Shown: positions 43,630 to 45,443 of the stretch, piece by piece
Numbering within the stretch: the first letter of the stretch is position 1
How the letters are laid out: each line of letters starts with the position of its first letter
Source of the DNA: Methanolobus sp. WCC4
GTDB taxonomy: Archaea > Halobacteriota > Methanosarcinia > Methanosarcinales > Methanosarcinaceae
Reading direction: 5' to 3'
DNA length: 64,000 nucleotides
Assembly: GCF_038022665.1 (NCBI RefSeq)
Contig: NZ_CP150629.1
Span: 974,480 to 1,038,479 of the forward strand
Translations under genes and position numbers: made by a program
The notes under the pieces: generated by a model
Seen by the model: only the letters and a program-made list of their open reading frames with translations
Told to the model about the DNA's origin: nothing
Databases searched by the model: none

Positions 43630-44799
43630 ATGTTCGAACTGAAGATAGCCCTTAGGCATATAAGTGCGCGGAAACGCCTTACATTCTTTGCAGTGTTCGC
43701 AGTAGCTCTTGCCATAGCTGTTATCGTGGTGCTGATGTCCATGATGACGGGGTTCACAGAGGAACTGGTCGATTCCACGGTGGAGAATTCCCCGCATATC
43801 GTTGTAACCTCGTCCGATCCGGATGAGGATTATGTGCATTTCTACAGTTATTATTCGGAACAGATAGCTGCAATGGATGGTGTTGAGGCTGTATCTCCTG
43901 TATTTGTGGGTCAGGCAGCCATCAGTCACAAGGACAATGCCGAAGGTGTGAATCTCAATGGTATCGACCCTGTTGCACAGGATGCTGTTATGCGCATCTC
44001 CGATGACATGGTATCAGGTGACCTGTTCGCATTGGGCAGGAGCAACAATGGTATAGTGATCGGTGATAATCTTGCAGAGGACCTGGAAGTTGTCATGGGT
44101 GACAATGTCGATGTCATCATGCCGGGATTTGGTGAATCATCTTTCAAGGTCATAGGCATATTCGATACCGGCTCGTCCAGTGATGAGGCAGTTGCATATG
44201 TCAGGTTCGACCCTGCCCTTGACTTCTTTGATGAGAACGGTGTTGCCAGCAGCATCAACATAAGGGTCACGGACCCTTTCCAGGCTGATGTGATAGCGAA
44301 TTCTATTGAAAAAGATACGGACCTCGATGCTCAGAGCTGGATCGAGGCTAACAAGGAGATACTCGACCTTCTCAACACGCAGGGGCTTATCGTGTGGATA
44401 TACTATGGTCTGATCTATATGATAGCCGGATTTGGTATTGCCAATACCCTCTTTACAGTTGTCATGGATAAGAAAAGGGAGATCGGTATGTTGAAGGCAA
44501 TGGGTGCCTCGAAGAAGAACATAACCATGATCTTCCTGATAGAATCCCTTATCCTCGGAACAATGGGTGTGATGCTTGGATGTGTGATGGGTTATTTCAT
44601 CTCATCGGCACTGGCATCCTACCAGATAGATCTTCCCAGTGAGATGTACTTCGGTTTGACGACCCTTCCTCTCAAGACCGATATCATGAACTATGCATAT
44701 GCAGTTATCTTCTCCTTCTTGATCAATATCGTTGCCGGGGTCTATCCTGCAAGAAGGGCAGCGGCTCTTGACCCGGTAGAGGCTATCGAAAGTGAGTGA
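43630..44799 (+). CDS. FtsX/LolE-type ABC permease
   Basis: A 389-residue permease with one N-terminal helix (residues 17-40), a large extracellular MacB-PCD domain (about 45-255) and three C-terminal helices with FtsX fold (GFGIANTLFTVVMDKKREIG; IFLIESLILGTMGVMLG; the VAGVYPARRAAALDPVEAIE end). ALRHISARKRLTFFAVFAVALA at the start marks the LolC/E subgroup. It is a clear paralog of the protein at 45483-46640. No ATPase is adjacent; the one at 38027-38731 may be its partner. Confidence 0.88.
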   Translation: MFELKIALRHISARKRLTFFAVFAVALAIAVIVVLMSMMTGFTEELVDSTVENSPHIVVTSSDPDEDYVHFYSYYSEQIAAMDGVEAVSPVFVGQAAISHKDNAEGVNLNGIDPVAQDAVMRISDDMVSGDLFALGRSNNGIVIGDNLAEDLEVVMGDNVDVIMPGFGESSFKVIGIFDTGSSSDEAVAYVRFDPALDFFDENGVASSINIRVTDPFQADVIANSIEKDTDLDAQSWIEANKEILDLLNTQGLIVWIYYGLIYMIAGFGIANTLFTVVMDKKREIGMLKAMGASKKNITMIFLIESLILGTMGVMLGCVMGYFISSALASYQIDLPSEMYFGLTTLPLKTDIMNYAYAVIFSFLINIVAGVYPARRAAALDPVEAIESE

Positions 44800-44834
44800 T
44801 GCAGACCTCTTCCTTATTTAAAGGGGGAAGTTAG

Positions 44835-44860
44835 TTCGTATTTGTACGAAAGGTTTATAT
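44835..44860 (+). promoter_or_regulatory. Palindrome plus TATA box before the candidate RNA
   Basis: A perfect inverted repeat TTCGTA-TTTG-TACGAA (44835-44850) is followed directly by TTTATAT (44854-44860). The expected transcript start, about 26 bases on, falls on the first base of the RNA stem (44884). A palindrome just upstream of the TATA box is where archaeal activators usually bind. Confidence 0.55.
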
Positions 44861-44883
44861 TCTAATATGTCGTTTGTATGTTT

Positions 44884-44965
44884 GCGAACGGGTTAGATTT
44901 TAGTACCTCTCCAATACACTCTAATGTCACCATACCTGTGCATTCAACCCCCCTTACCCGTTCGC
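44884..44965 (+). ncRNA. Candidate structured RNA, about 82 bases
   Basis: The two ends pair perfectly over 10 bases (GCGAACGGGT at 44884-44893 with ACCCGTTCGC at 44956-44965), and the stem extends 2 more pairs after one mismatch. An internal hairpin pairs AATG(T)CAC with GTGCATT around the loop CATACCT. GGGTT of the 5' strand could instead pair with AACCC inside, giving a possible alternative fold. There is no coding frame. It does not fit a tRNA (no T-loop motif, and arm spacing is wrong). T-runs follow. It may be a free small RNA or a leader of the downstream gene. Confidence 0.5.
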
Positions 44966-44972
44966 CTCCTAT

Positions 44973-45010
44973 GTTTTTACTATGTTTTTATTTTTTTGCC
45001 TATGTTTTTA
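44973..45010 (+). terminator. Multiple T-runs after the candidate RNA
   Basis: Four runs of five to seven T within 38 bases, separated by a repeated CTATG spacer (ATGTTTTTACTATG and onward). They follow the closing stem by 7 bases. This is a strong archaeal intrinsic termination pattern. Confidence 0.6.
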
Positions 45011-45035
45011 TCATCGTTCACACCAATTAGGTTAC

Positions 45036-45443
45036 ATGAGGATCTTGATCGAGACACCAAAATATAGCTTTTCTAAATACCACAGGGAAGGTCCGGTCTT
45101 TATCAAAGAGTTCATGTCACCTATTCCCACTATTTTCAACTATGGTTTTATTGAGGGGAGCCTTGCTGCTGATGGCATGGAAAAGGATGTTGTGGTCATA
45201 GGTCCGCGAATGGAACAGGGTACCGTGTTCGAGGTATCCGGGACAGATGGTGTGATAAAATTCATAGATGATTCTGTTGAGGACGACAAAGAGATCATCC
45301 TTTCCGGTGGTCTCTATTCAAAACCGCTCTTCTATTTTTATTTCCACCTTTACGCAGCTTTCAAGATAGCTTATTACCTTCTTGTTAAAAGGAAGATATC
45401 ACGTTGCAGGTTCGGAGGGATAGTCTGGTATAAAGAAGGGTAG
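45036..45443 (+). CDS. Inorganic pyrophosphatase-like small protein
   Basis: A 135-residue protein that starts MRILIETPKYSFSKYHREGP, then SPIPTIFNYGFIEGSLAADG, VVVIGPRMEQGTV and IKFIDDSVEDDKEII. This spacing of a Lys-rich strand, the NYGFI turn and two acidic turns echoes family I pyrophosphatases (NYG-I, then the D-D-P-D region), but several catalytic Asp of the full enzyme are not obvious. The C-terminal part is hydrophobic and basic (YLLVKRKISRCRFG), perhaps membrane-touching. The ATG at 45036 with AGGT before it is chosen over 44982. It lies after the candidate RNA and its T-runs. Confidence 0.6.
   Translation: MRILIETPKYSFSKYHREGPVFIKEFMSPIPTIFNYGFIEGSLAADGMEKDVVVIGPRMEQGTVFEVSGTDGVIKFIDDSVEDDKEIILSGGLYSKPLFYFYFHLYAAFKIAYYLLVKRKISRCRFGGIVWYKEG

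Follow-up and report, generated by a model that had tools for sequence, protein, structure and literature searches.

A probable, conserved small RNA gene with a putative MsvR operator in Methanolobus, belonging to an RNA family of the order Methanosarcinales

The segment at 44835–45009 of the window, by which is meant the whole stretch of 64,000 nucleotides from Methanolobus sp. WCC4 that was analysed, is very probably a stand-alone small RNA gene, judging from its sequence and that of its relatives, and its transcription is very probably controlled by the redox repressor MsvR. The RNA belongs to a previously uncatalogued family, which extends across the order Methanosarcinales and has no entry in Rfam. 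The sequences support the conservation and covariation of the RNA, the extent of its family, the identity and position of its operator and the presence of MsvR in the genome; transcription, binding by MsvR, derepression by oxidation and base-pairing in trans are inferred. We lean, with some reserve, towards a free small RNA that would be derepressed when MsvR becomes oxidised and would act in trans via an open loop. Little is known of the oxygen response of strictly anaerobic methanogens, and roles have been assigned to only a few small RNAs of archaea; the gene described here would place a small RNA, through a conserved promoter, under a known redox repressor.

The elements of the locus are listed in Table 1. 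A previous sequence-only reading had proposed for this segment a candidate structured RNA under a regulated promoter of its own, with a palindrome, a TATA box, a 10-bp stem and four T-runs, all of which lie within at most one base of the positions it had given, and its interpretation is supported in part. The spacing from the TATA box places the probable transcript start at about 44884, which is the first base of the stem, and the transcript would end in the first of the T-runs (44974–44978, with the others at 44985–44989, 44991–44997 and 45005–45009). Over this start lies a dyad (44873–44888) whose right half runs into the 5′ stem arm; in the form TTNGTA-N4-TGCGAA, the dyad is conserved in family members, including the paralogue located between hflX and a PHP-domain gene.

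Table 1. Features of the small RNA locus (window coordinates) and family members elsewhere in the same genome (G000:C1 coordinates)
Feature	Position	Strand	Basis or remark
Upstream MsvR box pair TTCGTATTTGTACGAA (putative operator), abutting BRE/TATA	44835..44850	+	exact published TTCGTAN4TACGAA
BRE/TATA element GGTTTATATT	44852..44861	+	sequence
Second, imperfect MsvR-like dyad TTTGTATGTTTGCGAA over predicted transcript start	44873..44888	+	2 mismatches to consensus
Small RNA gene, predicted transcript ~90–100 nt	44884..44978	+	conservation, fold z, covariance family; start and end predicted
Closing stem, 5′ arm GCGAACGGGT	44884..44893	+	9 conserved pairs plus a non-conserved tenth
Unpaired loop, rich in C and poor in G, carrying the near-invariant blocks AGTACCTCTCCA and TCACCATACCTGTGCATTCAA	44894..44955	+	alignment, consensus fold
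Closing stem, 3′ arm ACCCGTTCGC, perfectly complementary to 5′ arm	44956..44965	+	covaries with 5′ arm
3′ tail CTCCTATG and four T-runs, putative archaeal-type terminator	44966..45009	+	sequence
Pyrophosphatase-like gene, neighbour only, outside the RNA	45036..45443	+	PF00719, 34.6 bits
Paralogue in own genome (L031)	G000:C1:1333768-1333845		same stem and start-site dyad, different C-rich loop
Further members in own genome (L430–L432)	G000:C1:2314622-2314682, 2192324-2192411, 2436979-2437031		

The predicted RNA (44884–44966) folds at −20.1 kcal/mol, as compared with −9.25 ± 2.34 kcal/mol for shuffled sequences (z −4.64, 0/200). The stem by itself is unremarkable, since perfect 10-bp inverted repeats with loops of 40–80 bases occur seven times in the window versus one to eight times in shuffles, and its rarity, being at chance level, was dropped as evidence; it is conservation that is decisive for the RNA. 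Of the finer structure proposed by the sequence-only reading, the inner hairpin does appear in the predicted fold of this RNA, but it is broken in several of the 23 aligned relatives and missing from their consensus fold, which contains the closing stem only and leaves the loop unpaired, while the two-state fold, in which GGGTT would pair with AACCC, is not conserved, the letters needed for it being missing in many relatives.

Strong BLAST matches to a 171-base query were obtained in 25 of the 27 Methanolobus genomes examined (M. bombayensis, M. profundi and M. vulcani included), and a covariance model detected at least two family members in each of the 27. Of the two genomes without a strong BLAST match, one (G011) shows the stem pattern and shares the loop blocks, and in the other (G024) the covariance model found an RNA with a ACGAACGGG/CCCGTTCGT stem. 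In nearly all of the 27 genomes, the genes adjoining the RNA are the same, and the two loop blocks are near-invariant in the alignment of relatives. Since these blocks are not palindromic, their conservation speaks against an explanation in terms of DNA only, in which the inverted repeats would be regulator sites and the 82-base stretch would not be a functional RNA. That explanation draws on the double role of the 5′ arm as half of an MsvR-like dyad, but it is contradicted also by the fixed position of the TATA box, by the T-runs downstream, and by the arms of members lacking the upstream box, which covary to GTGAGC/GCTCAC and ACGAGC/GCTCGT, and it is given very little credence. The probability that the stretch encodes a small protein is negligible: the reverse strand of this species holds a 16-codon frame, as read by eye, but single-base and other non-triplet indels among the relatives shift every frame through the loop, and these single-base gaps in the alignment mean that there is no conserved reading frame.

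The sequence-only reading had left two roles open, that of a free small RNA and that of a leader of the pyrophosphatase-like gene at 45036, and it is the former that is favoured, as indicated by the T-runs after the RNA and by the absence of that gene downstream in one relative. The gene itself scores 34.6 bits against PF00719, the NCBIfam cut-offs for diphosphatases being far higher. A cis-acting leader, resembling a riboswitch or an attenuator, would be consistent with the RNA being located on the same strand, some 70 bases upstream, in a neighbourhood that is kept in most Methanolobus. It is nonetheless a distinctly improbable explanation, as the T-runs separate the RNA from the gene, the genome G021 (L012) retains the promoter, the RNA and the tail with the pyrophosphatase-like gene missing downstream, and relatives elsewhere sit beside hflX/PHP, rfcL and other unrelated genes, in either orientation and in some cases convergently.

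Common to the members of the family is an RYGARCGGG/CCCGYUCRY stem that closes a C-rich, G-poor loop, a description that the window RNA fits. Among 112 family genomes, 47 contain the exact stem pattern GCGAACGGG-N38-68-CCCGTTCGC, and none the reversed control. With a first covariance model, relatives were recovered from 14 genera of Methanosarcinales; a second one, used with lighter filters, found members in all of the 38 chosen genomes, usually two to six in each and five in the genome studied here. Of 393 genomes drawn from across the phylum, 69 gave matches, and 68 of these lie within the order. The single match outside of it is a weak one (E 2.8e-4) in G420, a genome of the same class and another family, and could represent either chance or an outlying member. 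With Rfam 15, no covariance-model match was found at E ≤ 5 in the interval 44700–45100 of the window, which agrees with the earlier impression that no known RNA family matches the locus, and a search of the loci of 18 relatives at E ≤ 1 returned tRNA and rRNA only, leaving the RNAs themselves without a match.

The family members were collected with models that favour the stem; in the resulting alignment, 99.4% of the stem cells are paired and 33 cells are changed on both sides versus 8.3 in shuffles (0/500), although these cell counts overstate the number of independent events, as the covariation consists of few lineage-level changes. Compensatory stem changes in related genomes, proposed by the sequence-only reading as the test by which its stem might fail, are present, with three pairs of one helix each showing double changes: GC/AU at pair 1, CG/UA at pair 2 (12 sequences) and AU/GC at pair 5 (17 sequences). 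A TATA-like hexamer is found at −36 to −20 in 100 of 111 distinct members versus 1.6% of random window sites, and in 98 of the 111 a T-run follows the stem at a distance of no more than 45 nt, versus 17% of such sites. The loops of these 111 members consist of 36% C and 4.7% G; they differ strongly among paralogues and genera, yet each is kept within its own lineage, and the motif ACCCCCACUCCCC is repeated in many paralogues. In the genome studied here, the paralogue at 1333768–1333845 is the one positioned between hflX and the PHP-domain gene (both named by eye from their translations), and three of the four extra members combine stems of the GTGAGCGGG, TTGCACGGG or ATGAGCGGG type with CCCCACTCCCC loops.

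The box pair recognized by MsvR has been defined as TTCGTAN4TACGAA, with binding tolerated for TTCGN7-9CGAA, and it has been proposed that MsvR, when reduced, covers the BRE of its own promoter and so represses it (Isom et al. 2013, PMC3729527). The palindrome pointed out by the sequence-only reading can be further identified as this known box pair (PMC3729527), as it matches the consensus without a mismatch and lies next to the BRE/TATA element. Exact TTCGTAN4TACGAA is present in only two copies in the 2.85-Mb genome. The other copy (G000:C1:437162-437187, L333) is located in the promoter of an IscA-type Fe–S assembly gene, which is likely to be an MsvR target conserved in the genus. When the box is considered together with a TATA element, the genome contains only three sites, belonging to msvR, to this Fe-S_biosyn gene (PF01521, IscA type) and to the RNA; across the genus, TTCGYN6RCGAA combined with TATA gives mostly one to three sites per genome, and its reversed control almost none. 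The msvR promoters of Methanolobus carry the same box directly before TATA, as does the RNA gene. The MsvR orthologue of this genome (G000:C1:1817988-1818650) was recovered by direct protein search and by NCBIfam (NF053755, 250.7 bits versus a cut-off of 220), with no match in a V4R-domain search, and direct protein search detected an orthologue in 26 of the 27 Methanolobus genomes.

Within the family, the box is present in 51 of 111 members, and TTCG-N8-CGAA precedes the stem by 33 bases in 48 of the 51, being at most one base off in the rest. The 5′ stem arm contains CGAA in all 51 of the box-bearing members, and other arms occur in 22 of the 60 box-less ones. The hflX–PHP paralogue is among those without an upstream box, so that control by MsvR is not universal in the family. 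A box-bearing member (4466291–4466379) occupies the hflX–PHP gap of a 5,751,492-base genome, which we take to be that of Methanosarcina acetivorans C2A; in Methanolobus, it is the box-less paralogue that lies in this gap. This suggests that a box-bearing RNA between hflX and PHP would be ancestral and that the window copy was relocated or duplicated. As M. acetivorans is genetically tractable, the presence of a box-bearing copy in the genome so assigned makes the question directly testable.

In the model proposed here, reduced MsvR would bind the box pair at 44835–44850 beside the BRE/TATA element, and possibly the start-site dyad as well, keeping the gene off, and oxidation of MsvR would release it from the DNA, allowing an RNA of about 95 nt to be made. 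The stem of 9–10 bp would lock the 5′ and 3′ ends together and present a single-stranded, C-rich and G-poor loop of 60 nt, which would pair in trans with G-rich parts of mRNAs, with ribosome-binding sites as the foremost candidates. The RNA would thereby join the IscA-type Fe–S assembly protein and msvR in a small redox regulon, and would itself be one branch of a family in which a common stem scaffold is combined with different loops in the paralogues. A wider interpretation, which is put forward tentatively and falls a little short of an even chance, is that of an uncatalogued archaeal RNA superfamily with one stem scaffold and interchangeable C-rich loops, one branch of which would be an MsvR-wired, OxyS-like stress RNA containing a half-operator inside its closing stem.

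Action by base-pairing in trans, as predicted from the loop, is regarded as an evenly balanced proposition, and ribosome-binding sites specifically are a more doubtful choice of target, suggested by analogy with the small RNAs of Methanosarcina that mask such sites (PMC5867862, PMC6560208). When the loop was paired to the start regions of 47 long ORFs of the window (first-ATG starts), 58 of 60 shuffled loops performed at least as well on average, and a generic anti-Shine–Dalgarno function of the loop found no support, there being no excess over shuffled loops in this small sample. When long complements of the two loop blocks were sought with wobble patterns, no start-site target common to the genus emerged, and most matches lay inside coding sequence or were antisense to such sequence. 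The one sense match that recurs, in several species, is a perfect complement, 13 bases long, of the block AGTACCTCTCCAA in a frame recognized by eye as phosphoglycerate-mutase-like (L459, L474, L477, L511), in which it encodes a Leu-Gly-Glu-Val-Leu stretch; the recurrence may reflect either coding conservation of this LGEVL or a real target. In an alternative model, the RNA would not pair with mRNA and would instead bind a protein, as a scaffold, decoy or sponge, through its C-rich loop or its constant stem. This is considered unlikely but is a serious rival, because the sequence of the stem is nearly fixed across genera, beyond what pairing needs, and because ACCCCCACUCCCC is repeated in many paralogues in the manner of repeated protein sites; the lack of a common mRNA target in the block-complement searches points the same way. 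In box-bearing members, however, the 5′ arm is already under constraint as a DNA half-dyad, and the divergence of the loops between paralogues and genera, together with their conservation in each lineage, is what would be expected of antisense loops.

Among the known systems, the sRNA154, sRNA41 and sRNA162 of M. mazei are alike in being intergenic small RNAs from the same archaeal family (PMC5867862, PMC6560208, PMC3510493). sRNA162 differs in having 191 nt and three stem-loops, whereas the window RNA has one closing stem and an open loop, and sRNA154 has two stem-loops and is subject to nitrogen (NrpR) rather than MsvR control, so that both are distinct from the window RNA by their published descriptions; one of the C-rich paralogues may prove to be sRNA41. 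The MsvR regulon (PMC3729527) agrees with the present locus in the operator sequence, in its position relative to BRE/TATA and in the cognate MsvR in the genome, but differs in that the published list of sites covers structural genes. The OxyS-type oxidative-stress sRNAs of bacteria (PMC5867862, and general knowledge) provide an analogy of wiring, that of an sRNA under a redox sensor, with sequence, regulator and domain of life being unrelated. No MsvR-controlled small RNA was found in the open-access papers that were searched.

Five family members were found by the second covariance model in G026, presumably the genome of Methanolobus psychrophilus R15, with loci at 1262978–1263048 and 948157–948238 on the minus strand, and three further members of it, when read by eye, showed no common upstream motif. 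For M. psychrophilus R15, which belongs to the same genus, cold-induced conserved sRNAs and 195 mapped sRNA starts have been described (PMC5378194), and RNAs of the present family may be among the unnamed entries of the RNA-seq lists published earlier for M. mazei and M. psychrophilus. A 73-nt member (GTGAGCGGGAAACTTTTTTCACATACC...ACCCGCTCAC) has an identical score of 43.7 bits in many Methanosarcina genomes (e.g., L436; also L444), suggesting an unusually strong conservation. Tandem members are located a few hundred bases apart in Methanococcoides (L046 and L048) and in Methanosarcina and a relative (L437 and L443), which suggests repeated local duplication accompanied by divergence of the loops.
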